Positions 3,356 through 44,487 of a stretch of 64,000 bases of DNA are shown here, one piece after another. Each line of letters opens with the position of its first letter. Position 1 is the first letter of the stretch. Location: contig NZ_OMPU01000013.1 in the NCBI RefSeq assembly GCF_900313065.1, positions 124,001-188,000 of the forward strand, given 5' to 3'. Origin of the DNA: Kiloniella sp. EL199 (GTDB lineage: Bacteria; Pseudomonadota; Alphaproteobacteria; Kiloniellales; Kiloniellaceae). Both the position numbers and the translations under genes were made by a program. The notes below the pieces were generated by a model. The model did not search any database. It was not told where the DNA came from and worked only from the letters and a program-made list of their open reading frames with translations.

Positions 3356-3387
3356 CAGAGAACATTGGTTCTGTTTATAATTCTCTG
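3356..3387. terminator. weak stem-loop between convergent genes
   Basis: CAGAGAA at 3356-3362 pairs with TTCTCTG at 3381-3387 around an 18-nt loop. It lies between the stop of the PilZ gene and the stop of the convergent DUF2786-type gene. The stem is short and the T-run is poor, so function as a bidirectional terminator is only a possibility. Confidence 0.3.
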
Positions 3388-3391
3388 ATCT

Positions 3392-3802
3392 TTAAGCAGC
3401 TGGCTTTCTGTTCTTAAGTTTCATTGCTGTAACTTTATAAACATCCAGCCCTGTAATGCTCGAAATTTCACGAATGGATAGTTCTGTTTCCCTCAACAAA
3501 ACAGCGGCGTGAATTTTTGGCGGCATACCCCGTGGTTTTCTGTTTCTGACTTTCACAGGGCTGCCGAGTGATTTTTGAGGCTTATCATCCTTGGACAAGC
3601 CTCGTTCATAAGCGGCCTTTAGTGCTGCTTCATGACGGGCTTTTTCCTGTGCAAGATGAGAATCCATCAAATGGAGCGAGTTGGCAAAAACACGTTCCGT
3701 CGCCGACATACTATAGGAAGCCGGACGCGCCTTTTGTTTTGGCTCATCTCTCGGACCACCTTCTGCAGCCTCTTCCAACGACATATTATGTTTTACTGCC
3801 AT
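3392..3802 (-). CDS. DUF2786-type protein, 3' part of a frameshifted gene
   Basis: The ATG-started frame encodes 136 residues, but the coding frame is open further upstream, to a TGA at 3935-3937. The extra residues carry the hallmark of DUF2786: ETERIRFHNLLQVAALSP followed by ERENALAAAKRMAVKHNMS, with the ATG at 3802 falling in the middle of that conserved block. There is no ATG, GTG or TTG in the upstream extension. The neighbouring frame (3850-4038) runs into this one near an AAAA run at 3901-3904 (TTTT on the coding strand), where a one-base shift joins the two into one sensible protein. The C-terminal 50 residues look like a helix-turn-helix (SIREISSITGLDVYKV). DUF2786 function is not established. 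Either a real frameshift, programmed slippage, or a sequencing error would explain this. Confidence 0.65.
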   Translation of the reverse strand: MAVKHNMSLEEAAEGGPRDEPKQKARPASYSMSATERVFANSLHLMDSHLAQEKARHEAALKAAYERGLSKDDKPQKSLGSPVKVRNRKPRGMPPKIHAAVLLRETELSIREISSITGLDVYKVTAMKLKNRKPAA

Positions 3803-4038
3803 ACGCTTAGCTGCCGCAAGGGCATTCTCTCGCTCTCCGTCATACGGGCTTAACGCTGCAACCTGTAAAAGGTTGTGGAACCTGATCCGCTCCGTTTCTG
3901 AAAATCCCTCACTAATGATCTTAATTCCCTTAATTCACTTCCAAGTTGCCCATTATACGTTAACTCAGGTTTATGGGCAGTAACTTTATCGGTTTTCTTC
4001 TGTTTTTTTCTTCGGGGCGTTCGTATCACCGCCTCCAC
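3803..4038 (-). pseudogene. 5' part of the frameshifted DUF2786 gene
   Basis: A GTG-started frame (4036-4038) encodes a basic 62-residue peptide ending at 3850. Its early part (RRKKQKKTDKV) is low-complexity and lysine-rich. The later part, up to SLVRDF, continues naturally into the DUF2786 block if one base is shifted at the TTTT run at 3901-3904; after that point its own frame reads into a short unconvincing tail. The start codon is uncertain because the first 50 bp overlap another possible small gene. Listed together with 3392-3802 as one broken or slipped gene. Confidence 0.45.
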
Positions 4039-4126
4039 GGCGATCTGGCTGTTTTAATGGATAGTCATTTTTCCCTTCAATCATGTTTAGCAACAGGATA
4101 AAGGGGATAAAAAATATCCACATCAT
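3986..4126 (-). CDS. possible small membrane protein
   Basis: A 46-residue frame from ATG at 4126 (a TTG at 4147 would give 53 residues). It starts with a strongly hydrophobic helix, MMWIFFIPFILLLNMI, then a polar tail DYPLKQPDRRGGGDTNAPKK ending shortly after. This helix-plus-Pro/Gly/Lys-tail pattern looks like a genuine small inner-membrane protein. It overlaps the 5' part of the frameshifted DUF2786 gene by about 50 bp in another frame, so both cannot use this stretch as drawn. No function can be assigned. Confidence 0.4.
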   Translation of the reverse strand: MMWIFFIPFILLLNMIEGKNDYPLKQPDRRGGGDTNAPKKKTEENR

Positions 4127-4196
4127 ATAGTAAAACAGCTTAGCCAAAAGAAGTGTTCTCCGCCCTTGTTCTCCCAGAAAATCACACTAAATCATA

Positions 4197-4601
4197 TTAA
4201 CCCTGAACAACATCAGTTGAATCAGCGTCCTCTTCTATTGAATATTGCCCAGCTGTAGTTTCATCAGCCAATCCAGCGTGAAGAGTTAAAAGAACAATTT
4301 CAGCATCAATACCATCTTCAAAAACCTTGACCATCTCTAATCGACGCAGCATTTCTTTTGACTCTTCAGCGCCGTTAAAATCTTCAAAATCTTCTTGCCC
4401 CAGAATACAATAACTCAAGAACCCAGCCAAATCATGAAGGGCTCCCTCTGGATTATCTCTAAGTAACCCTCTGTCTTTTGCCAAGCGCCACAAAGTCAGC
4501 TTTACAGCATCTGGAACAACGGCGCTAAACGTACCTGTGCGCTTCAAGCCATCATCGATCATATGGATTTCTTTTTTCCGTCCAAAAAATCCAAAAATCA
4601 T
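4197..4601 (-). CDS. hypothetical acidic protein
   Basis: Encodes 134 residues that I cannot place in a family. After a short basic start (FFGRKKEIH) it is predicted mostly helical and acidic, with repeated Glu/Asp clusters and no membrane segment or signal peptide. The ATG at 4601 has only a weak ribosome-binding site, and a second ATG 13 codons later is an alternative. It is followed on the same strand by the small membrane ORF and the DUF2786 gene, with gaps of roughly 50-70 bp, so the three could be co-transcribed. Confidence 0.55.
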   Translation of the reverse strand: MIFGFFGRKKEIHMIDDGLKRTGTFSAVVPDAVKLTLWRLAKDRGLLRDNPEGALHDLAGFLSYCILGQEDFEDFNGAEESKEMLRRLEMVKVFEDGIDAEIVLLTLHAGLADETTAGQYSIEEDADSTDVVQG

Positions 4602-4819
4602 AGGTTCGATCTCGCATCAAAATTCGTTATTAGAGGCTATCTCGCTTCTCAAGCGCCCCGATATAAAACAAGGGTATAGATCAAGAAGCATAAAAATGAA
4701 ACTCCGGGATTACATCAAACGTTGATTACAAGACTAAATCGCACCAGAAGAGATAGTTTCCTCAAGACAAAAAACTGGTAAGTTAGGCATAAATTTTCAA
4801 GGATTAATGTTTCTGAATC

Positions 4820-5506
4820 ATGTGTGGACGTTTTGCTTTAACCACCCCTATCGCTGATCTAAGCGACCTTATGGACTTTCCAGAACGACCCAATCTGGAA
4901 GAACGATATAACATCTGTCCGACCCAACCAGTTGCAGTTGTTGTTCTAGGGTCTGATAAAAGGAAACATTTCACATTGCATCGTTGGGGATTGATTCCAA
5001 ACTGGGTTAAAGAACCAAACCTGAACAATCCAATACACAACGCCCGGAGCGAAACAGTCAACGAAAAGCCATCCTTCAAAGGCCCCTTTCGCGGCAGGCG
5101 TTGCCTGATCCCCGCCGACGGCTTCTATGAGTGGCAAAGCGGATATGCCGGGAAGACAGGCCCTGCTGCAAAACAAGGCTATTACATCACACAGACTGAC
5201 AATGCGCCCTTTGCTTTTGCAGGGATCTGGGATGATTGGCTTGGAGCTGATGGCAGTGAAGTACAATCCTGTGCCATCTTAACAACCGAAGCCAATCACG
5301 ACATTTGCCACATTCACCATAGAATGCCGGTAATTGTGCCAAGAAAAAATTACAATACGTGGTTATTCAAAGGAGGGCACGATCTCTTGAAACCGCTCCC
5401 AATCAATAATCTCAAAGCAACACCCGTCACCAGCTATGTCAATAATGCCCGCAACGAAGGTCCTGCCTGTCATGAACCCCAGATTCAACAAGCTCAACTC
5501 TTTTAA
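4820..5506 (+). CDS. yedK: SOS response-associated (SRAP/HMCES-like) protein
   Basis: A 228-residue SRAP-family protein. It starts MCGRFAL, so after removal of Met the catalytic Cys2 becomes the N-terminal residue, as in YedK and HMCES. Other family residues are visible: the Asn in HNARSETV, the Glu in GFYEWQ and the His in HHRMPVIV. These proteins form a stable thiazolidine crosslink with abasic sites in single-stranded DNA and shield them from cleavage. Length matches the family. The first Met must be at 4820 because Cys2 is essential. It is a lone gene; the 178-bp gap before the MOSC fusion shows no obvious LexA box to me. Confidence 0.9.
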   Translation: MCGRFALTTPIADLSDLMDFPERPNLEERYNICPTQPVAVVVLGSDKRKHFTLHRWGLIPNWVKEPNLNNPIHNARSETVNEKPSFKGPFRGRRCLIPADGFYEWQSGYAGKTGPAAKQGYYITQTDNAPFAFAGIWDDWLGADGSEVQSCAILTTEANHDICHIHHRMPVIVPRKNYNTWLFKGGHDLLKPLPINNLKATPVTSYVNNARNEGPACHEPQIQQAQLF

Positions 5507-5684
5507 GCGCAAAAGTGTGGCAATTTTGAATCACCAAAAACTGATCAATATTTTCTATATGAAATAGAATCTCTCCACTGAATCTATTTTTAAAATATAT
5601 CTGCTATCTGCCCTTGTTCTTCTTGGCATCAAATCATTATCATCAATCATTCTTGGCCAATCTCACCCAATAAAAGGCACTATT

Positions 5685-7598
5685 ATGTCCAAAGCAGTTG
5701 TCAGTGATCTCTTGATTTATCCCGTTAAATCTGTTGCCGGTATCTCAATGTCCAAAGCATCTGTTTTAACAGCCGGACTGGCCGGGGATCGTCGATATCT
5801 CATTACAAAGCCCGACGGCACCTTTGTTACCGGACGGACACACCCAAAGATCACGGCAATCAAGAGCGCTTATCATGGCGCACTTTTAACTCTGTCTCAT
5901 GAGGATAAAGAATCTATCACTCTCAATCCTGAAAGCTTTGCTGATAAATACAAAAATAGTAATGTGTGGGGCACGGATCTTATTGGACAGGAGTGCGGTG
6001 ACCAAGCGGATGGATGGATAAGTGATCTTCTTGGCGAACCCATGAAATTGCTTTACTTCGGCAATCGATCTGAACGCTTTATCAAACAACACCCCGAAAA
6101 TGATGTGGGATTTGCCGATGGCTTTCCACTTTTGATCACTGCAGAGAGTTCACTGGGTGAATTGAACAGGCGTTTGCTTGCCCCTGTTTCCATGGCCAAT
6201 TTTCGTCCTAATATAACAGTTAGCGGTACTCTACCTTTCGAAGAAGACGGATGGTCCTTGATCAGAATTGGCGATGTAAGGTTCGAATTACCCAAACCCT
6301 GCGCACGCTGTGTTTTCACAACCGTTGATCCCTTTGCCCATGCTGCTGATAAAGTTCTTGAGCCTTTGAAAACTCTCACCGAATTCCGGCAAGTTCCGGA
6401 TGGGAAAGATGTAATTTTCGGGGAAAATATGATTCCCTTGAACACGGGAACTATTCAGATTGGTGATCCTGTCGAAATACTTAAAACAAAATCCAAACCA
6501 TACTACGTCGATAACTGGAAACTCAAGTCATCTCGCATGACAGCACATCTGAAACCAAAGCCATCAGAAACCTTTGATCAGAATCCCATATTACTACGGT
6601 GTGTGCAGGTCATTGATGAAACCAAGGACGTAAAAACCTTTAAATTCACAGCTGACCCTGTGAAGCGTTTTTCCTATCAACCCGGACAATTCTTAACCCT
6701 TCACATTCCAATTAACGGCGAAATTGTCAGCCGTTGCTATACTATTTCATCCCCCCCTTCACGCCCGGACACTATTACAATTACGGTCAAGCGGGTTAAA
6801 AAAGGACGTGTTTCCAATTGGCTGCATGATCATGTAACCGTTGGCTCTAGTGTAGAAGCCATTGGTCCCGCCGGTATTTTCCATTTAAGAGAAGACCAAA
6901 AGAAAAAAATCCTGATGATTTCTGGCGGATCAGGTATAACGCCTATGCTATCAATGACCCGGTTCATTACGGATACAGGGTTGGATTATGACATCCATTT
7001 CCATCATTCCGGTCACACAATTGATGATCTTATTGCCTGGTCAGAGCTGTCATTGCTCTCAAAGCAATTCCCCGGGCTAAAGCTTTCCTATAACACGACT
7101 CAGGGCGTTCCGTCCTCCAGTTTGATTGAACACGGTATCAAAGGCCGAATCTCACCCAAAATGCTAAAAGAAGTTTGTCCCGATTATCTTGAGCGTGATG
7201 TATTTGTCTGTGGTCCTGATCAGTTTATGGCAACGGTACGAGCTTTACTGATGAACAATGGTTTTCCAGAAGATCAGTACAATCAGGAAAGCTTTACCAT
7301 CGAACCAATCCTGCCCTCTAAAGACAGATCAACCGCAAGCTATTCAATTCACTTTTCCAAATCAGGTGTGACTGCAGAAATCAAGGGAAATCAAGCTGTT
7401 CTAGACGCGGCTGAAGCTGCAGGAATCGATATTCCCTACAGCTGTCGCGGCGGTCTGTGCGGCACCTGTAAAAGTGAGCTAAAACACGGCGAAATCTCAG
7501 CACCAAACGCCATGGCGCTCAGCGAGGAAGATACAAAAAACAATCTCTTCCTCGCCTGCTGCAGCTTTCCCAAAAGTGATATCGAGGTTGATCTTTGA
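5685..7598 (+). CDS. MOSC domain / flavodoxin reductase / 2Fe-2S ferredoxin fusion protein
   Basis: A 637-residue fusion. Residues 1-95 form the MOSC N-terminal barrel (LLIYPVKSVAGI), and about 120-265 the MOSC domain with the conserved PCARCVFTTVDP. About 300-400 is an FAD-binding ferredoxin-reductase barrel (SRCYTISSPPS). About 400-530 is the NAD-binding half (GGSGITPML, VCGPDQFM). About 550-637 is a plant-type 2Fe-2S ferredoxin with CRGGLCGTCKSE and a final Cys in FLACCSFP. The layout gives a self-contained electron chain from NAD(P)H through FAD and FeS to a molybdenum-cofactor-type site. YcbX/YiiM-type MOSC proteins reduce N-hydroxylated compounds, and a similar role is inferred here. 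It is monocistronic. Confidence 0.88.
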   Translation: MSKAVVSDLLIYPVKSVAGISMSKASVLTAGLAGDRRYLITKPDGTFVTGRTHPKITAIKSAYHGALLTLSHEDKESITLNPESFADKYKNSNVWGTDLIGQECGDQADGWISDLLGEPMKLLYFGNRSERFIKQHPENDVGFADGFPLLITAESSLGELNRRLLAPVSMANFRPNITVSGTLPFEEDGWSLIRIGDVRFELPKPCARCVFTTVDPFAHAADKVLEPLKTLTEFRQVPDGKDVIFGENMIPLNTGTIQIGDPVEILKTKSKPYYVDNWKLKSSRMTAHLKPKPSETFDQNPILLRCVQVIDETKDVKTFKFTADPVKRFSYQPGQFLTLHIPINGEIVSRCYTISSPPSRPDTITITVKRVKKGRVSNWLHDHVTVGSSVEAIGPAGIFHLREDQKKKILMISGGSGITPMLSMTRFITDTGLDYDIHFHHSGHTIDDLIAWSELSLLSKQFPGLKLSYNTTQGVPSSSLIEHGIKGRISPKMLKEVCPDYLERDVFVCGPDQFMATVRALLMNNGFPEDQYNQESFTIEPILPSKDRSTASYSIHFSKSGVTAEIKGNQAVLDAAEAAGIDIPYSCRGGLCGTCKSELKHGEISAPNAMALSEEDTKNNLFLACCSFPKSDIEVDL

Positions 7599-36793: not shown

Positions 36794-37108
36794 ATGTATG
36801 TTGTTGAGATTGTGAGTTGGCAAGCGGCACCAAACGTAACCGACCAACAGATGATTGATGCCGTTCAGGCAATGGTTCCCGACCTCGAAAAGCTACCCGG
36901 ATTTAGGTATCAGTCCCTCTCAAAAGATGATGATGGTCTATGGATGGATATTTACTATTGGGATACGAAAGAAGATGCCCATAAATCAAACGATTTGATG
37001 ACAAGCAAACAGTCTTTGCAAGACCTCATCCCCCTTATTGATATGAGCAGTTTGAAGATAGATGTTTTGACACCACATCAAGAGTCAGGTTTAGTAAATT
37101 TCTCCTGA
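36794..37108 (+). CDS. antibiotic-biosynthesis-monooxygenase-like dimeric barrel protein
   Basis: A 104-residue protein of the dimeric alpha+beta barrel type: YVVEIVSWQAAP as the first strand, then LPGFRYQSLSKDDDGLWMDI and YYWDTKEDAHKS. Related small proteins are cofactor-free monooxygenases or binding proteins. The AAAGGA before its ATG and the operator-like palindrome suggest control by the divergent LysR protein. Substrate not known. Confidence 0.65.
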   Translation: MYVVEIVSWQAAPNVTDQQMIDAVQAMVPDLEKLPGFRYQSLSKDDDGLWMDIYYWDTKEDAHKSNDLMTSKQSLQDLIPLIDMSSLKIDVLTPHQESGLVNFS

Positions 37109-37139
37109 AAAATACTTGCCACCCCGATAAGCGACCCAA

Positions 37140-37703
37140 ATGCTCATTGAAAAATCCTTCTATTTTCTAAGACACGGCCTAACGGACTGGAACAAAGAAA
37201 AGCGTTATCAGGGACAGCGTGACATCCCACTTAACGACGAAGGCATCAAGCAGGCATATTAGGCACAGGTCCTTCTAAAGAACGAAAATATTACAGCGAT
37301 CTATACCAGCACACTGTGCAGAGCAAAAAAGACCGCCGAAATCATTAATGAAGTCCACAAAGTGTCTTTGATTGAATCATTGGCACTACAGGAATGCCAT
37401 TATGGTTCTTTAGAAGGCCAACTTAAAACAAACCCAGAAGTCGATGCCGATTAGCAAAAGGGAATAACGCCACAGGGTGCGGAAGATTACCTCAGTTTCT
37501 CGGAACGGGTTCTCAAAGCTGTAAATGATATTCTGAACACCAACGGCGTGCCCCTGATCGTGGCGCACCGTGCTGTTTTTTGGCCCATCGCAGAGGCAGC
37601 AAATATCGGGCATGATATCGACTTGGGAAATGCCTACCCGGTTCTCATGCATCCTCCAATGTCTGGTAAAAACAGTTGGAGGGCAAAATTTATTAGCACT
37701 TAA
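37140..37703 (+). pseudogene. histidine phosphatase family gene with two in-frame amber codons
   Basis: One uninterrupted frame of 188 codons reads through as a phosphoglycerate-mutase-like histidine phosphatase, except for TAG at 37260-37262 and TAG at 37452-37454. The first part has [20 protein letters not shown] (RHG motif), the middle ITAIYTSTLCRAKKTAEII, and the last VAHRAVFWPIAEAAN with the second catalytic His. No frameshift or missing segment is present. The TAGs sit where Gln or Trp would be expected, each one base change away. Either a young pseudogene or amber readthrough would explain it. Confidence 0.8.
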
Positions 37704-37829
37704 TTTCGATAAGTTGTTCGAAAAACTCATCACAGAATCACGCTTCCCTTCAATAAAACTGACATGTCTATGTAACTATCTTAAGTAGCAAAAGACACGA
37801 AAAAGGCATCAGTAAAACATCATAGAAGT

Positions 37830-38960
37830 ATGTCTAACTTGTACCTCCACGAAGTAAATGCTACTCCAAATTGCGTCAGCGTACTTTGGGGGGGACTGTT
37901 TCGCGTGTTTTTCATAAAAAAGCTAAGACCGTTATTAGCTTACGTCTATCGACTCAGTTGGCCATCTCTAATAGCAACAACTATATTTTTGTTTACGCTT
38001 ACTTGGGTTGGGTTACTTATTTTAGAACCCAGTGATAGCCCAATCATCCGTGCTGATACCTTTTGGTGGTTTTTCTTTGTAACAGGAACAACCGTTGGCT
38101 ACGGCGATTTTGCCCCCATGTCACAAGGCGGTCGCGTTATCACTGTGATCTTTAATATGGCTGGCGGCATTGGCTTGCTGGGGGCATTCATTGGCAAATT
38201 GGCGGGCGATTTTTCAACCCTGATACGACGTCGACATCTTGGGAAAGGGAGTTATCTCTACATGACAGGACACATTGTTATCTTCGGGTGGCGAAAAGAA
38301 AGAACCCGAAAAATCATTGAGTCTATTCTTGCCGATGAAGCTGAAAATCGACAGATCGTTCTCTGTTCCAGTACCGTGACGGAAAACCCGATGCCAGAGA
38401 AAGTAAGTTTTGTCTCTGGCAGTCAGCTTGCGACTGATGATGTTCTACAGCGTTCCAATGTAACAGAAGCTTCATGCGTTATTATTGATGGTGGTAATGA
38501 CGATCAAACACTAGCCATTGGAATTGGCGTCAATGCACTATTGAACGGTCACACCCACGTAGTTGCCTATTTTCAGGTAGAAGAGTACGCGAAGCTCCTG
38601 CGGAATGTGAATTCCAAGATTGAAACCATTGTCGACATGTCTGGTGATCTACTGGTCCGGGCAATGCAAGACCCCGGATCTTCACAACTTCACGAAGAAT
38701 TATTATCAGCGCTTGTCGGTAGTGCAACCCAGTTTTCAGTACAAGTACCCGATAACATTCCTACGATGAGTTATCTTGATATCCTGATTGGCTTGAAACG
38801 TCATCACAACGCAACATTGCTCGCGGTCGCCCCTTCACAGGACCCAACAAGACTTTGCCTCAATGCCAGCAACGATATCAATTCCGGGGACTCTCTCTTC
38901 ATTGTAGCCAAAAGACGTCTTTCTCAAATCGATATCGACTGGTCAAAATTTGGCACATAA
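37830..38960 (+). CDS. two-helix potassium channel with RCK (TrkA-N) domain
   Basis: A 376-residue channel. Helices are at about 46-66 and 103-125, with the K+ selectivity filter TTVGYGD at 87-93. A cytosolic RCK domain starts near residue 147 (GHIVIFGWRKERTRK) and a second RCK-C-like half follows. It resembles MthK/Kch-type channels opened by ligands or nucleotides. It is 102 bp upstream of and on the same strand as the DUF2170-PspA genes; ion channels recur beside PspA-DUF350 clusters in genome surveys as I recall, so a role in the same membrane-stress response is inferred. There may be a separate promoter between. Confidence 0.85.
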   Translation: MSNLYLHEVNATPNCVSVLWGGLFRVFFIKKLRPLLAYVYRLSWPSLIATTIFLFTLTWVGLLILEPSDSPIIRADTFWWFFFVTGTTVGYGDFAPMSQGGRVITVIFNMAGGIGLLGAFIGKLAGDFSTLIRRRHLGKGSYLYMTGHIVIFGWRKERTRKIIESILADEAENRQIVLCSSTVTENPMPEKVSFVSGSQLATDDVLQRSNVTEASCVIIDGGNDDQTLAIGIGVNALLNGHTHVVAYFQVEEYAKLLRNVNSKIETIVDMSGDLLVRAMQDPGSSQLHEELLSALVGSATQFSVQVPDNIPTMSYLDILIGLKRHHNATLLAVAPSQDPTRLCLNASNDINSGDSLFIVAKRRLSQIDIDWSKFGT

Positions 38961-39000
38961 CATTTTTTCAAAAAAACTCTTGAACCCATCATCACCTATA

Positions 39001-39024
39001 TTACATGTAACATATAACATGTAA
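39001..39024. promoter_or_regulatory. 24-bp palindrome upstream of the PspA operon
   Basis: TTACATGT and ACATGTAA are perfect 8-bp arms around AACATATA. The element ends 38 bp before the GTG of the DUF2170 gene and looks like a repressor or activator site. No known regulator is matched. Confidence 0.5.
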
Positions 39025-39062
39025 GAAAATCGAATGACTAATAACGAAGCAGAGATATTATT

Positions 39063-39686
39063 GTGAACGCAAAAAAGTCCTCTCATTACCAAGCTCTGTA
39101 TCGGGAACGATTAAAAGCCAGAGGGTTTGTGAAACGGGAGGTATGGATCCCTCCTGAAATGAGCACAGTTCTGAAAGATTGCGAAAATGCTCTTCGCGAA
39201 GGATTAATGCCGGAAATACCGACAGCAAAGGGAAAGAAGATAATGAACCAGGAAGATGTTTGGACCACTGAAAGTTTATTTGATGCGATTTCCGCATCTG
39301 ACAATGCGACCAACAAAGAGCTGCTTATTGAACTCGTCGAAGGTGCAGACCCCGGGATTCTCATTACAATGAATGAATTTGGCGACCTGCCAATTTTCAT
39401 GAGTGTAAGCGGAAGCCAAATCGTTGCAGAAAGCCTGTTATGGCCTGTGAAAGATGTCGATGATGCCGAAGCTTTTAACGCGATGCTTTTACGTTCTCAC
39501 AAGCTCATGCCGCTTTCAACTTTTGGCATTGCTCCCGGTCCTGACGGGCAAGATTATTACGAAATCTTTGGCGCACTGAGTGCTGGCTCAAAATTGGAAA
39601 GCATCCTGGAAGAGATCGAAACACTTGCCGATAACGCCATTCAGGCTGTCGAAGCTTTTGACACTGCTTTTCGCAAAAGCGCCTGA
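39063..39686 (+). CDS. DUF2170 protein (YjfI-like)
   Basis: A 207-residue cytosolic protein. The N-terminal 55 residues are basic (HYQALYRERLKARGFVKREV) and could bind nucleic acid or membrane; residues about 60-200 are the DUF2170 domain (ESLFDAISASDNATNKELLI, ISVSGSQ-type strands, LPLSTFGI-like segment). In E. coli the homologue YjfI precedes a PspA-family protein (YjfJ) and YjfL. Start is GTG at 39063. It is followed by pspA with a 39-bp gap. It probably modulates PspA assembly; this is inference. Confidence 0.8.
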   Translation: MNAKKSSHYQALYRERLKARGFVKREVWIPPEMSTVLKDCENALREGLMPEIPTAKGKKIMNQEDVWTTESLFDAISASDNATNKELLIELVEGADPGILITMNEFGDLPIFMSVSGSQIVAESLLWPVKDVDDAEAFNAMLLRSHKLMPLSTFGIAPGPDGQDYYEIFGALSAGSKLESILEEIETLADNAIQAVEAFDTAFRKSA

Positions 39687-39725
39687 TCACCACCTACCGC
39701 AAAAGCACACTTAAGGAGTTAAATT

Positions 39726-40415
39726 ATGAGTATCTGGAGTAAAGTTTTTACAGCAATTCGCGGTGGCGTTAGTGAAACCGGCGAAGCAATCATTGACCAT
39801 CAGGCCCTGCGTATTCTTGACCAGGAAATTCGCGATGCAGATAACGAACTTGCCAAATCCAAGGATGCGCTAGCCGGAATTATAGCAAAGCGCAAAATGG
39901 CGGACAGAAAAGTTGCCGGCCTGAATGAAAACATCGCCGAGTACGAAAACTACGCGGTCAAAGCACTTGAAAATGGTGACGAAACACTTGCATCCGAAAT
40001 TGCAGAAAAAATAGCAAACCTTGAAACGGAACGGGATAGCGAGCAGGCATTGGCAACATCATTTGCCGATAGCGATGCACAGTTACGCAAGTCCATTTCA
40101 CAAGCAGAAGGCAACCTCAAACGCCTGAAACAACAGGTAGATACTGTTAAGGCAACTGAAAGCGTTCAAAAAGCACAAGCTGCCGTCGCAGCCCGACACA
40201 GTGGTGCAAATTCATCAATGCGCAATGCTGTTGATTCACTCGAAAGATTGAAAGCAAAACAGGATGAACGCAGTGCACGATTTGAAGCGGCCCAGGAACT
40301 TGCTGATACAGCAGAAGATAGCAGCCTCGAAGACAAACTAAAGGCCGCTGGTATCAAACCAACCAATGCAAAAGGCTCTGATGTTCTGGAACGCCTGAAA
40401 GCAAAAAAGAAATAA
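39726..40415 (+). CDS. pspA: PspA/IM30 family protein
   Basis: A 229-residue, almost wholly helical protein of the PspA/Vipp1/ESCRT-III superfamily. It starts SIWSKVFTAIRGGVSETGEA and continues with long charged coiled coil (KRKMADRKVAGLNENIAEYE) and an amphipathic start helix suitable for membrane binding. Such proteins polymerise on damaged membranes and limit proton leakage. No PspF, PspB or PspC gene is nearby, so it is not the classic Psp regulon. AAGGAG precedes the ATG. It is followed by a perfect hairpin and then the DUF4178 gene. Confidence 0.9.
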   Translation: MSIWSKVFTAIRGGVSETGEAIIDHQALRILDQEIRDADNELAKSKDALAGIIAKRKMADRKVAGLNENIAEYENYAVKALENGDETLASEIAEKIANLETERDSEQALATSFADSDAQLRKSISQAEGNLKRLKQQVDTVKATESVQKAQAAVAARHSGANSSMRNAVDSLERLKAKQDERSARFEAAQELADTAEDSSLEDKLKAAGIKPTNAKGSDVLERLKAKKK

Positions 40416-40437
40416 TCAAACTTTCCACGTAAAATTT

Positions 40438-40465
40438 GCCGGACGAATATGATATTTCGTCCGGC
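40438..40465 (+). promoter_or_regulatory. intra-operon hairpin after pspA
   Basis: GCCGGACGAA and TTCGTCCGGC make a perfect 10-bp stem with the loop TATGATAT. It lies between pspA and the DUF4178 gene and has no T-run, so it is more likely an mRNA-stability or processing element than a full terminator. Confidence 0.6.
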
Positions 40466-40501
40466 AATTACTTTGACATAACAGGCAAGGGGGTGCTGAT
40501 C

Positions 40502-41137
40502 ATGTCCACATTATTTTTAATATTTCTGATTCTGGCCATCGGCGCACTGATCGGTATCTATATCGTGAACAAAAAGAAACAAGGCCCGGCATCAAATGAT
40601 GCCGCAGCAACTCATACAGCTCAGCCGTCTGTTGAAAACCTTCAAAAGGGTGGTGTCTTCCGCGTCAATGGCTTTGGCGAGCGACTGGATGATATGGATT
40701 TCCTTGTTCTCGACCGTCATGAATATCGCGAAGGCAACTACAAATGGTTCGAGCTTGAATGCGAAACCGGAAACGAAAAAATCTGGATAAACGTTGAACG
40801 TGATGATGATTTGGAAATAACAGTATCAACATCCAAGATGCGCCTCGCTGAACTTGGAATTTCCAAGGAAGACCTGCAACGCTTTGACAACGATGAAGAC
40901 GGTAGCTTTTCCTACGAAGGAAAAAAATTCTACTACGAAGATTCCGGTAGTGCACAGTTCTTTCGCGCAGGCGATATGAGTAACGCTCAGGATTTTTATT
41001 ACTGGGAATTCGAATCAGAAGAAGATCCTCGCTTTATTGGTGTTGAACGCTGGTCTGACGGATCTTTTGAAGTTCACGTTTCCGAAGCGATTAGAGAATC
41101 ACGAATTACAGTCTATTCCAACAGTGGGGGGGAATAA
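40502..41137 (+). CDS. DUF4178 membrane-anchored protein
   Basis: A 211-residue protein with one N-terminal membrane helix (TLFLIFLILAIGALIGIYIV) followed by KKK and a soluble acidic beta-rich DUF4178 region (GFGERLDDMDFLVLDRHEYR, YKWFELECETGNEKIWINVE, YYWEFESEED). The ATG at 40502 is chosen because AAGGGGGTG lies upstream and it leads straight into the helix; an earlier TTG would run through the hairpin. The stop overlaps the next start (TAATG). DUF4178 proteins recur near PspA/DUF350 and polyamine-synthase-like genes; their role is unknown. Confidence 0.78.
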   Translation: MSTLFLIFLILAIGALIGIYIVNKKKQGPASNDAAATHTAQPSVENLQKGGVFRVNGFGERLDDMDFLVLDRHEYREGNYKWFELECETGNEKIWINVERDDDLEITVSTSKMRLAELGISKEDLQRFDNDEDGSFSYEGKKFYYEDSGSAQFFRAGDMSNAQDFYYWEFESEEDPRFIGVERWSDGSFEVHVSEAIRESRITVYSNSGGE

Positions 41138-41991
41138 TGAATATCGACTGGATAACGCTCTTTACAGGCCTGGGGGAAGCACTCGCTTACCTTGGGCTTT
41201 TTGCCATCATGCTTTTAATTGCAAAATGGCTTAAAGACTTATGGACACCATACAGCATACCTCATGAACTAACCAAGGCAGACAATCCGGCAATCGGGTT
41301 GGAAATGAGTGGCTATTTTCTGGCGACGACCCTTACATTTGTCGGGGCCGTTACGGGTGATTCAACAAACTTCCTCCAAGACCTGAGCCTTGTTGCCGGA
41401 TACAGTTTTCTCGGCATCCTGATGTTGAACGCATCACGTGTTGTCATGGACAAACTTTTATTCAACAAATTTTGTTCTGTAAAAAAAGTTATCGAAGGTC
41501 GCAATATCGGGGTCGCCTCCGTTCGCTTTGGGTTATATCTGGCAACTGGTGCCGTTGCTGGCGGTTCTATTCACGGTCAAGGCGGCGGCTTTGATACAGC
41601 AATCGCGTTCTTCGTTTTGGGACAAATTGTTCTGATTTTATTCTCAAAAATCTACGAACTCTTAACTCCCTATAACACCCATGAAGAAATTGATTCAGAA
41701 AACACGGCTGCCGGAATTGCCTTGGCTGGGACTTTTATTGCCTTGGGAATCATCATAGCTGGCGCTGCACACGCAAGCTTTATTAGCTGGACCTATAATC
41801 TTGTACTGTTCGCAGAACTCGCTATTAGCGGCATGGTCCTCTTGGTCATCGTACGATTTTTCATGGATAAGTTAATTCTTGTCGGTGATGACTTGAACAG
41901 GGAAATATCCGAAGACAGAAACCTGGCGGCAGGATTTCTTGAAGCAACAGTAGCCATCGCCTTCGCTATTGTTCTGGCCATTTTGCTGTAG
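41137..41991 (+). CDS. DUF350 (YjfL-like) integral membrane protein, duplicated domain
   Basis: A 284-residue inner-membrane protein with about eight helices arranged as two DUF350 copies. Each copy has an NPAIGLEMSGYFLATTLTF-type stretch (second copy: NTAAGIALAGTFIALGIIIA) and an ISEDRNLAAGFLEA-type end. The function of DUF350 is unknown, but it consistently accompanies PspA-family and DUF2170 proteins. The start codon overlaps the DUF4178 stop by one base, so synthesis is coupled. Confidence 0.85.
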   Translation: MNIDWITLFTGLGEALAYLGLFAIMLLIAKWLKDLWTPYSIPHELTKADNPAIGLEMSGYFLATTLTFVGAVTGDSTNFLQDLSLVAGYSFLGILMLNASRVVMDKLLFNKFCSVKKVIEGRNIGVASVRFGLYLATGAVAGGSIHGQGGGFDTAIAFFVLGQIVLILFSKIYELLTPYNTHEEIDSENTAAGIALAGTFIALGIIIAGAAHASFISWTYNLVLFAELAISGMVLLVIVRFFMDKLILVGDDLNREISEDRNLAAGFLEATVAIAFAIVLAILL

Positions 41992-42001
41992 GGGGGCCGA
42001 T

Positions 42002-42577
42002 ATGCTGAATAACGAAATAGAAAAACATAAAACAGACTTAGGCAAAGTTGCCCTGGTCTTGCTCGGCTTTGCCATTCTCTTCCTTGGAACTGGTTTTGTG
42101 CTCAGCACAACAAGTGACGTTACCAAAGGCAATTACCAACTCAACGATTCCATCGGTCCGCTGGAAGTTACCTCCGACTACACCGTTTATAACATTGATG
42201 TGCAAGGGTATCTGGAAGATAAATCCTGGCTCTATCTCGAGCTTGTTCTCCAGAACTCCCAAAAGGAATATCTCTTTTCGTTTGGCAAGGAGCTATGGCG
42301 AGAAAGTGGTTACGATTCTGATGGCGCATGGTCTGAATCTGAGTCTCATTTTTCACAGAAAATTACGATCCCCAAAAAAGGAACTTACTTTCTTGCAATA
42401 ACAGGTGGCTCAAGCACCAACCGAGGTAGCATGAAAGTCAACATAACTGAACAAGCGGCTAGTGCCCTCCCTCACATGTGGATTGGCGTTCTATTGTTGA
42501 TTATCGGCATAATCTTGAATGAAATAAAAAACCGCACTTTATTAAGCATGGCAGGTTACGAAAGAAAGGAGCATTAA
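42002..42577 (+). CDS. unknown protein with two membrane helices and an external domain
   Basis: A 191-residue protein starting MLNNEIEKHKTDLGK. One helix lies at about 16-35 and a second at about 158-176, enclosing a beta-rich periplasmic domain of about 115 residues (KSWLYLELVLQNSQKEYLFS, GTYFLAITGGSSTNRGSMKV). The domain has the look of a jelly-roll or carbohydrate/ligand-binding fold, but I cannot name a family. GGGGGG lies before its ATG. It sits in the middle of the PspA/DUF350/SpeE-like operon, so it likely senses or shields the outer face of the membrane. Confidence 0.7.
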   Translation: MLNNEIEKHKTDLGKVALVLLGFAILFLGTGFVLSTTSDVTKGNYQLNDSIGPLEVTSDYTVYNIDVQGYLEDKSWLYLELVLQNSQKEYLFSFGKELWRESGYDSDGAWSESESHFSQKITIPKKGTYFLAITGGSSTNRGSMKVNITEQAASALPHMWIGVLLLIIGIILNEIKNRTLLSMAGYERKEH

Positions 42578-42578
42578 G

Positions 42579-42815
42579 ATGAACAAAACGACAAAAACAA
42601 TAACCATCATCAGCGTTCTCCTTCTATTAGTGTACGCTCTGCTATTCATTCCGGCTAAATCAGGCTGGGGCTATATGGGATATCAAGGCTATAACTCCGG
42701 ACCTTCGTTTTTCTATTGGGGCGGTGTAAATACCTATTACGACAGGCCAAGCGCCCGATCCGGAAGCCAAGGGGGAACATCCCATGATGGCGGTGGAACT
42801 GCCCGTGGCAAATAG
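42579..42815 (+). CDS. small Gly/Tyr-rich membrane protein of the PspA operon
   Basis: A 78-residue protein with one membrane helix (TITIISVLLLLVYALLFIPA) and an exported-side tail rich in Gly, Tyr and Ser (GWGYMGYQGYNSGPSFFYWG, ending GGGTARGK). AAGGAG precedes the ATG, and the gene begins two bases after the previous stop and ends 14 bp before the next start, which argues for a real gene. No family assigned; the tail suggests an interaction surface. Confidence 0.7.
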   Translation: MNKTTKTITIISVLLLLVYALLFIPAKSGWGYMGYQGYNSGPSFFYWGGVNTYYDRPSARSGSQGGTSHDGGGTARGK

Positions 42816-42829
42816 CTTGAGTTTACATA

Positions 42830-44398
42830 ATGACTGAAGTTATTTCCTCAGAAACGACATCTTCCAGGGATCAGAAACGATCCCTGGAAGTATTTACCCT
42901 GATCACAACAGTGTTTATCGCTGGCCTGTGCTCCATTGTCTACGAGTTACTGATTGCGACCACTGTCTCTTACTTCGAAGGGGATAGCGTCAAGTATTTC
43001 TCATTAACAATAGGTCTCTATATGGCCTCTATGGGGGTGGGGTCTTTCACCTCCAAATATATCGAAAAAAATCTTCTTTTCAGATTCACTGTTATTGAAA
43101 TCGCACTGGGCTTTCTCGGCGGAATATCAATACCCGCTCTCTACTTTGGCTTCTCGCACACAAATTATTTTCAGGAACTTTATTATATTATCACGATCAT
43201 GATCGGATATCTCATTGGTCTTGAAATACCGCTTCTGACAAGGATTCTAAAAGACTATAATTCACTGCGTGTAAACATCGCCCATGTTCTGTCACTGGAT
43301 TATTTTGGCGCCTTGCTGGCAACCATTGCATTCCCGTTTATTCTGCTCCCCTTTCTCGGCACCTTCCGATCAGGCCTATCCTTTGGCCTCGTCAATATGC
43401 TGATTGCCTTTATGATAATCCGCGTTTTCCCGCAAACATTTGGCCGAGCCAAAAAACCACTCTGGATACTATCCATACTCGCAACATTAATGATTGCAGG
43501 AACAATATTCAGTGCCGAAAAGCTTTTGAAATTATGGGATGACAGTGTTTTTGACGGACGAGTACTCCTGTCACAGGAAACCAAGTTTCAAAAGATTGTC
43601 CTGACAAAGAATAAATCAGAGATTCGATTATTCCTGGATGGAAATCTTCAATTTTCATCATCAGACGAATATCGTTATCACGAAGCGCTGGTACATGCTC
43701 CAATCCAGCACACAGCAAAAGTTAATCGGGTCCTGCTACTTGGCGCAGGCGACGGCATGGCCGTCAGAGAGTTATTAAAATATCCGGAAATAGAAGAGAT
43801 CACTCTCGTAGATCTGGATCCGGCAGTTGTCAAGATCGCACGAACAAACCCATGGGTACGTGAAATTAATAACGACGTCATGAATACTTCCAAAAAAGTA
43901 TCCGTCCTTCACCAGGATGCCCAACGTTTTCTTATGGAAAATACACAAGCATATGATTTCATTATTGCTGATCTCCCAGACCCTAATAACAACGCATTGG
44001 TACGCCTTTACTCAAAGGCATTTTATCGATTAATCAGACGGAACCTCACACCTGAGGGTATTTTTGTCACGCAGGCCGCAAGCCCCTTTTTCACAGGAAA
44101 AGCATTCTGGAGCATTCAGAAAACCGTCGCAGCCAGCGGCTTTTCACACACGAAACCTTTTCATGTTCTGGTCCCCTCTTTCGGTGACTGGGGGTTTGTA
44201 CTTGCAGCTAATGCACCTTTGGAAATGAAACGCCAGGACGACCTGCCCGCAACTCGCTTCCTCAATAACAAAATCATTCAGAACATGTTTGTTTTTGGCA
44301 AAGACTTAACCCCACCGGATGTCAATGTGAACACATTGGATCGCCCGATATTATTGACCTATTATCTGGATGGCTGGCAAAAATGGAGCAGGCAATGA
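42830..44398 (+). CDS. membrane-bound spermidine synthase-like protein
   Basis: A 522-residue protein. About seven membrane helices in the first 225 residues (FIAGLCSIVYELLIATTVSY) precede a spermidine-synthase fold: the SAM-binding motif LLLGAGDGMAVRELLKYP (about 302-319), EEITLVDLDP and the active-site-like DFIIADLPDPNN, plus YSKAFYRLIRR. It would transfer an aminopropyl or related group from decarboxylated SAM or a SAM derivative at the membrane; the substrate is not proven. No SAM decarboxylase gene is in the window. It ends the operon after DUF350 and the two small unknown genes. Confidence 0.85.
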   Translation: MTEVISSETTSSRDQKRSLEVFTLITTVFIAGLCSIVYELLIATTVSYFEGDSVKYFSLTIGLYMASMGVGSFTSKYIEKNLLFRFTVIEIALGFLGGISIPALYFGFSHTNYFQELYYIITIMIGYLIGLEIPLLTRILKDYNSLRVNIAHVLSLDYFGALLATIAFPFILLPFLGTFRSGLSFGLVNMLIAFMIIRVFPQTFGRAKKPLWILSILATLMIAGTIFSAEKLLKLWDDSVFDGRVLLSQETKFQKIVLTKNKSEIRLFLDGNLQFSSSDEYRYHEALVHAPIQHTAKVNRVLLLGAGDGMAVRELLKYPEIEEITLVDLDPAVVKIARTNPWVREINNDVMNTSKKVSVLHQDAQRFLMENTQAYDFIIADLPDPNNNALVRLYSKAFYRLIRRNLTPEGIFVTQAASPFFTGKAFWSIQKTVAASGFSHTKPFHVLVPSFGDWGFVLAANAPLEMKRQDDLPATRFLNNKIIQNMFVFGKDLTPPDVNVNTLDRPILLTYYLDGWQKWSRQ

Positions 44399-44487
44399 TG
44401 ACTATTGGGGATGAGATCAAAACCTCGTAGATAAGGTTGTCAAAATTTTCTATACCCCCTGATCAAACATCGGTACCTGCCCCATAA

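Follow-up and report, generated by a model that had tools for sequence, protein, structure and literature searches.

Gene content of the locus

The 64,000-nucleotide stretch of the Kiloniella sp. EL199 genome analyzed here (contig NZ_OMPU01000013.1, positions 124,001–188,000; hereafter, the window) carries eight plus-strand genes at positions 37,830–44,398, which bring together a K+ channel, a long form of DUF2170, PspA and a membrane module with a SpeE-like enzyme. This cluster is probably a PspA operon for membrane stress in which two known operon types have been combined and which is under the control of its own DUF2170 gene. The genes, named using Pfam and NCBIfam scans of the window proteins, are as follows (TM, transmembrane).

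37830–38960, + strand: K+ channel with a TVGYGD filter, read from the translation, and an RCK-like domain (Ion_trans_2, 39.5 bits; TrkA_N, 19.9 bits, below the cut-off)
39063–39686, + strand: long DUF2170 protein, GTG start, 207 aa (DUF2170, 164.7 bits); residues 1–60 putatively DNA-binding, CesT/Tir-type domain at approximately residues 67–200
39726–40415, + strand: PspA of the YjfJ/BacB type (PspA_IM30, 166.6 bits; tree)
40502–41137, + strand: DUF4178 protein with an N-terminal hydrophobic helix (74.2 bits); the frame is open from TTG 40436, with ATG 40502 preferred
41137–41991, + strand: doubled DUF350 membrane protein (DUF350 twice, 181.6 bits)
42002–42577, + strand: two-TM protein whose helices flank a domain; reaches no family cut-off, relatives fused to DUF4178 in other loci
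42579–42815, + strand: small one-TM Gly/Tyr protein ending in Gly-Lys; reaches no family cut-off
42830–44398, + strand: membrane-embedded aminopropyltransferase-like protein, TM and SpeE domains (Spermine_synth, 122.7 bits; NCBIfam PRK03612, 593.7 bits)

An earlier reading of this stretch made without database searches (the original prediction) had placed eight same-strand genes here, which is confirmed, as are the families that it named: the ion channel, DUF2170, PspA, DUF4178, doubled DUF350 and SpeE matches exceed their cut-offs, the RCK part alone staying below. Its description of the junctions as coupled or very short applies to five of them (39 nt, a 1-nt overlap, 10, 1 and 14 nt), but not to the channel–DUF2170 gap of 102 nt, which contains an operator-like pair, nor to the PspA–DUF4178 gap, which measures 86 nt if DUF4178 starts at ATG 40502. 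The N-terminal domain, box pair, internal start and hybrid origin described below were not covered by that prediction.

Long DUF2170 proteins and the box pair

The first 60 residues of the window DUF2170 are not found in the short, E. coli-type DUF2170 proteins and are common to 15 further long proteins. A pair of similar boxes lies upstream of the gene.

39063–39242, + strand: N-terminal domain; model helices 6–19 and 31–48, with a strand between them suggested by sequence only
39001–39024, no strand assigned: operator-like pair, TTACATGTAA (39001–39010) and TAACATGTAA (39015–39024), 14 bp apart; the sole such pair in the window

A genome scan anchored on the N-terminal part yielded 147 relatives, of which the best 80 were kept; these were picked by N-terminal patterns rather than by boxes or the internal ATG. 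The set represents long forms near the query, with many close relatives, and counts are therefore also given after thinning at 80% identity (33 genes). Allowing one mismatch within 120 bp upstream, at least two TYACATGTRA boxes precede 77 of the 81 long genes (80 relatives and the window) and one box precedes each of the other four; in 54 of the 81, two boxes are exact. Spacing is 22–24 bp in 57 of the 77 pairs and 14 bp in 13, including the window. After thinning, the pair is kept in 30 of 33 genes. By contrast, two boxes were found upstream of none of 869 other open frames of the same loci (uncurated, each at least 200 aa long), with one box upstream of a single frame, and in only 1 of 1,620 shuffles. 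The possibility that the channel promoter shares the operator was rejected, since ACATGT at 37762 deviates from the box at three flanking positions and was not counted.

Sigma70-like hexamers are present in 66 of the 80 relatives versus 16% of shuffles. In 55 relatives the -10 element ends 6–7 nt before the full-length ATG (0.9% of shuffles), compared to 24–32 nt in other loci. The former position suggests that the full-length transcripts are near-leaderless.

The long DUF2170 is a candidate autorepressor acting at these boxes. Alternatively, the box pair might be bound by another regulator, with the N-terminal extension serving elsewhere, for example, in membrane or PspA binding. Several observations weigh against the autorepressor, and some of them favor this alternative. 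The N-terminal domain reaches no Pfam cut-off and is not placed in a DNA-binding family at threshold: the closest is the MazE-like antitoxin family PF11455, with 20.5 of 22 bits in the relative L136 and 18.1 bits in two stand-alone homologues, and the window's own domain gave no match. The predicted monomer shows two helices and no strand, as opposed to the strand-helix-helix order of ribbon-helix-helix (RHH) proteins, and includes no recognized DNA-binding fold. The fold lists for the DUF2170 model are filled by its CesT-type domain, which matches the solved BacA structure 8q8o (Z 21.7, rmsd 1.3 over 138 residues) as well as type III chaperones, and are uninformative on the N-terminal part. 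In the diverse first set of 16 long genes, two boxes were found in nine and none in five; a single box consensus for all long genes was rejected on account of these five, and the sites of diverse long genes without standard boxes, if any, differ. Finally, no sigma70-like pair is present at the boxes of the window; the sole promoter-scan match there (39034–39061) scores 9 of 12, in a scan that as a whole performed no better than chance.

Nevertheless, we consider binding by another regulator unlikely. Among near relatives the box pair tracks the extension, being present in 77/81 long genes versus 0/24 short DUF2170 genes (two of the latter have one box), and the N-terminal domain has at least two stand-alone homologues. 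In two long genes without the box, L107 and L123, different repeated palindromes can be seen by eye upstream (CTCACGCGTGAG twice and TTCGCGAA-like twice, respectively), as would be expected if the operator had changed along with the domain. A related observation comes from L124, a SpeE operon with a short DUF2170: a separate 99-aa gene (L124:6775–7074, minus strand) appears RHH-like by eye, with no Pfam match, and is possibly an unfused counterpart of the putative repressor domain.

An internal ATG and a probable second DUF2170 product

A second conserved feature of the long genes lies at the junction of the two domains.

39227–39245, + strand: purine-rich AAAGGGAAAGAAG and internal ATG (39243–39245), the predicted start of a short DUF2170 (-5.3 kcal/mol, moderate)

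In all 81 long genes, an in-frame ATG lies no more than 14 codons ahead of the CesT-type domain; of other 14-codon windows, 27% contain one. Across the 81 genes, where the best of several ATGs was taken if more than one was available, the median anti-Shine-Dalgarno energy is -10.7 kcal/mol at the internal ATG and -2.9 kcal/mol at the full-length start. In the thinned set, the corresponding medians are -8.8 and -2.9, compared to -2.5 for 291 other ATGs (p = 2e-18) and -6.4 for the 17 of 33 PspA starts that were located. A second, short product made from the internal start is thus likely, as judged from these sequence signals.

A different interpretation is that a single protein is made, the internal ATG and purine stretch being either left over from the joining of an upstream DNA-binding open reading frame (ORF) to an ancestral short DUF2170 gene, or a consequence of a linker rich in Gly and Glu. 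Short DUF2170 proteins do start near the same place, and amino-acid make-up accounts for part of the signal: with a synonymous-codon null, p = 0.012 over the first 16 genes and 0.547 for the window alone, whose internal start is also of moderate strength only (rank 0.09). These values count against an internal start in the window. Across the family, a useless relic should decay, yet the ATG is kept in every long gene, and energies of -7 or lower occur at the internal ATG in 67% of the 33 thinned genes versus 3.4% of 205 control windows. We therefore regard the single-protein interpretation as rather improbable and favor two products.

The solved BacA chain (8q8o) comprises 146 aa and, from its fourth residue, aligns to window residues 65–200. 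P. aeruginosa PA3732 is reported (PMC2587700) as a 16 kDa product with an RpoN site upstream of the gene. Since both the 16 kDa product and the 146-aa chain fit the short form, the published work appears to have missed the N-terminal domain.

Hybrid ancestry and a presence/absence block

In the PspA tree, the window protein and nine long-type PspAs make up a starred clade of ten (100/96). Eight of the nine come from alphaproteobacterial genomes and the ninth carries the label Acidiferrobacteraceae; identity to the best of them is 73%. The window PspA is separate from six PspAs of SpeE operons, indicating that the DUF2170–PspA dyad is not of the lineage found in the second operon group discussed below; the tree carries a long-branch warning, and the placement of five of these six is itself unsure because they sit on a very long branch. 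The window SpeE, on the other hand, groups in a set of seven (SH-aLRT 99) with six loci carrying the full SpeE operon and is 54% identical to the best, in a quick tree which flags the letter make-up of the window sequence. Profiles of SpeE, DUF4178, the two-TM protein and the Gly/Tyr protein matched none of the 80 long-type loci, 62 of which are at least 15 kb long, and the channel family is found in 17 of the 80. The window is thus a hybrid, with a DUF2170–PspA pair nearest to loci devoid of the SpeE module and a SpeE module nearest to another operon type. In the locus with the nearest long DUF2170 (L175), PspA is followed by genes (3383–5813, plus strand) for a GSP_synth ATP-grasp/glutathionylspermidine-synthase-like protein and an ornithine/arginine-decarboxylase-like protein; the channel and DUF2170 are also present.

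Comparison with a genome of the same genus, G257, delimits the segment.

37088–44487, no strand assigned: 7.4 kb block absent from G257; flank identities 81% and 84%, the distance between the flanks being 98 bp in G257 and 7,400 bp here

Because the channel and the operon both fall between flanks that adjoin in G257, they form one presence/absence block. Neither DUF4178 nor the long DUF2170 was found in G257, so a gain in the window would be simpler than a loss in G257. A search for terminal repeats at the block ends returned nothing above a 9-mer. Inside the block, just upstream of the channel, lies a broken histidine phosphatase gene with in-frame stops (37131–37700, plus strand; PF00300).

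Conserved linkage and the place of the channel

A neighborhood survey of DUF4178 and DUF350 had been set as a test of the original prediction, with the lack of conserved linkage as the outcome that would speak against it. DUF4178 is rare: within the class it was found in 4 of 289 genomes and within the phylum in 26 of 398, the window's own included. Based on profiles built from the window proteins, on which presence calls at all loci rest, the 27 non-own DUF4178 loci contain DUF350 in 26 cases, membrane SpeE in 25, PspA in six and the channel in none. The linkage is therefore conserved and exceeds chance. Non-own DUF2170 occurs in 50 places, 33 of which were taken in and 17 left out, one of them (G294) inside L083; the channel family is present in 18 of these 33 loci and SpeE in six. 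The two occur together in three loci (L117, L120 and L122). These counts separate a SpeE–DUF350–DUF4178 module from a channel–DUF2170–PspA module. The order PspA–DUF4178–DUF350–TM2–GY–SpeE is kept in six surveyed loci, with extra genes in L075, L084 and L124, the DUF4178 of L124 being weak and sub-threshold. In L073, L074 and L076–L081, DUF4178-type proteins of 425–510 aa match the family of the two-TM protein as well (weakly in L080), which connects two operon members.

The inclusion of the channel in the system, as originally proposed, is only partly borne out: its absence from DUF4178 loci but presence in about half of the DUF2170 loci means that the window joins two known themes. The channel and the PspA–SpeE genes may instead be independent units that merely adjoin, as the operator-like pair of the 102-nt gap and the absence of the channel family from all 27 DUF4178 loci would suggest. 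The recurrence of the family near DUF2170, in the 33 DUF2170 loci and the long-type set alike, and its location inside the same 7.4 kb block here speak for a connection; we consider independence a serious possibility, albeit the less probable one, and retain the channel as part of the system.

The membrane SpeE and lysine-tailed small proteins

The SpeE-like protein passes the curated cut-off of 472 bits of PRK03612, a family named polyamine aminopropyltransferase. The aminopropyltransferase signature (GxGDG, [DE]LD, D-x-P-D-P, Q and P-x-F-G-x-W-G) is kept in 32 of 32 aligned rows, and the SpeE domain aligns with thermospermine and Thermus aminopropyltransferases. The original prediction stated that no SAM decarboxylase is near, which is true of the locus; the genome does have one, SpeD, encoded next to a different SpeE on a separate contig, which means that the donor can be produced. 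The protein could be inactive, or a simple spermidine synthase duplicating cellular polyamine synthesis. The shared fold, signature and family name would suit the latter; four further Spermine_synth matches in the genome, one beside SpeD, as well as the TM domain and fixed operon partners argue for a dedicated role, and we find either version of this alternative fairly unlikely. The lines of evidence on topology disagree. Loop charges favor seven TM helices with the catalytic domain outside, in conflict with decarboxylated SAM being expected inside the cell, and the predicted structure has one unbroken helix at 150–199, at odds with the loop-charge topology.

In 22 of 32 loci, a small one-helix protein is encoded within approximately 6 kb of the membrane SpeE, in 17 of these cases with its start less than 650 nt upstream of that gene. 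All 22 end in Lys (HK in 10, GK in seven, VK in three and IK in two), compared to 5.1% of 1,295 uncurated open frames of 200 aa or more, but of the 22, a profile picked out seven, reading of an unfiltered list by eye six, and a filter favoring Lys the remaining nine. For the set read by eye, half-proteins of DUF350 and small ORFs that overlap other genes were set aside with the lysine idea already in mind; the filter covered 20 loci and required Lys-like ends or an RxG motif, and 10 of the 32 loci showed no tail protein. It is conceivable, although we consider it very unlikely, that the membrane SpeE uses the small protein as its substrate: the C-terminal Lys, with a diamine-like side chain, would accept aminopropyl groups, and a polyamine bound to a peptide would arise at the membrane, perhaps on the outer side. 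If so, the lysine-tail proteins would provide orphan membrane SpeE enzymes with a candidate substrate. The C-terminus of the DUF1190 protein in ATP-grasp operons is Gly-Gly in L163 and L164 but Ser-Gly-Ser in L178.

Additional features

40436–40467, + strand: 12-bp inverted repeat between pspA and DUF4178, forming a hairpin; the 87-nt stretch folds at -25.5 kcal/mol

This hairpin is a possible attenuator or RNA-stabilizing element. A 13-bp inverted repeat is also present at 42861–42890, within the 5' end of the SpeE gene. A second PspA is encoded elsewhere in the genome (G000:C19:17750–18394). A role in defense was considered and dropped: PADLOC matches PspA weakly, probably via its coiled coil, and its Mad2 model (MADS defense) matches the SpeE domain (42830–44398, plus strand; 5.2e-16), probably through the common fold.

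Proposed regulation

The gene content, box pair, internal ATG, mixed ancestry and presence/absence block can be brought together in one model. The full-length DUF2170 would bind the paired boxes via its N-terminal domain and repress the operon, while the CesT-type domain would bind PspA. Membrane damage would recruit PspA, titrating the repressor away and inducing the operon. The short DUF2170, which would lack the DNA-binding part, might act as a PspA chaperone or adjust the switch. Once induced, the membrane module (DUF4178, DUF350, the two-TM protein, the small tail protein and SpeE) would probably produce or move an aminopropylated amine at the membrane, with K+ balance restored by the channel. 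Published data on the Bac proteins are consistent with two of these steps: a bacA mutant accumulates the Bac operon partners (PMC10948618), as loss of a repressor would predict, and a BacA–BacB contact predicted at 0.981 (PMC13092808) fits the titration step. Other points are harder to reconcile with it. The evidence for repression from bacA is proteomic and comes from one transposon mutant, the promoter proposed for bac in the P. aeruginosa literature is of the RpoN type (PMC2587700), and the hairpin after pspA might uncouple the SpeE module from control by the box pair.

Comparison with known systems

The window shares with the classical Psp system (PspF–PspABC) PspA as a membrane effector and, in the proposed model, regulation by a PspA-binding protein. 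It would differ in having a repressor in place of the PspF activator. The original prediction listed PspF, PspB and PspC as absent; there is indeed no PspC match in the genome, and no search aimed at PspF or PspB was made.

The core of the original prediction is a member of a class already in print, and its parts list is ordinary. In Ravi et al. 2024 (PMC11237479), a "second major group" (AAN56744–AAN56747) is listed with the operon DUF2170–PspA–DUF4178–DUF350–membrane SpeE, the last gene being sometimes an RHH factor, and a link between PspA, polyamines and membrane dynamics is already proposed there. Together with the linkage and catalytic signature, this supports the predicted membrane-stress system as far as a PspA operon with an aminopropyltransferase-like enzyme is concerned. 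Common to the window and the second group are the CesT/Tir–PspA dyad, DUF4178, the 8TM DUF350 and the 7TM-SpeE side by side; the TM2 or GY protein may fill the slot of the Ctha_1186 lipoprotein. What sets the window apart is its K+ channel, a PspA from a different clade, and the long form of DUF2170, preceded by a box pair. In the "third group" of the same study, a K+ channel occurs with DUF350, DUF1190, DUF2491 and ATP-grasp proteins. The window likewise has a K+ channel adjoining DUF2170–PspA, and its DUF2170 and PspA are nearest to such loci, but ATP-grasp, DUF1190 and DUF2491 are not among its eight proteins and the SpeE module stands in their place. New relative to print are the hybrid ancestry, the additional N-terminal domain with its box pair, the internal start and the lysine tails, the regulatory design being the more important; among the matches listed in the open-licence literature, partly represented by excerpts, no description of the extra domain, its boxes, the start inside the gene or the tails was found.

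The closest comparison for the regulatory part is the bac operon (bacABCDEF) of P. aeruginosa. The NCBIfam BacA model (NF050185) aligns end to end with the window DUF2170 (238.1 bits, below the cut-off of 300), and BacB is a PspA, as in the window. Nearly all Pseudomonas relatives in our set, which does not include P. aeruginosa itself, carry the box pair. No SpeE module or channel was found in the Pseudomonas loci surveyed; the published promoter is of the RpoN type, and the published structure is limited to the short part. In Pseudomonas and relatives, a fusion of repressor and CesT-type PspA partner that acts on a recognizable operator would be a concrete and testable answer to how bac-type operons are switched on. 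Should this hold, the published BacA structure would be devoid of its regulatory half, and both isoforms would matter in the interpretation of mutants.

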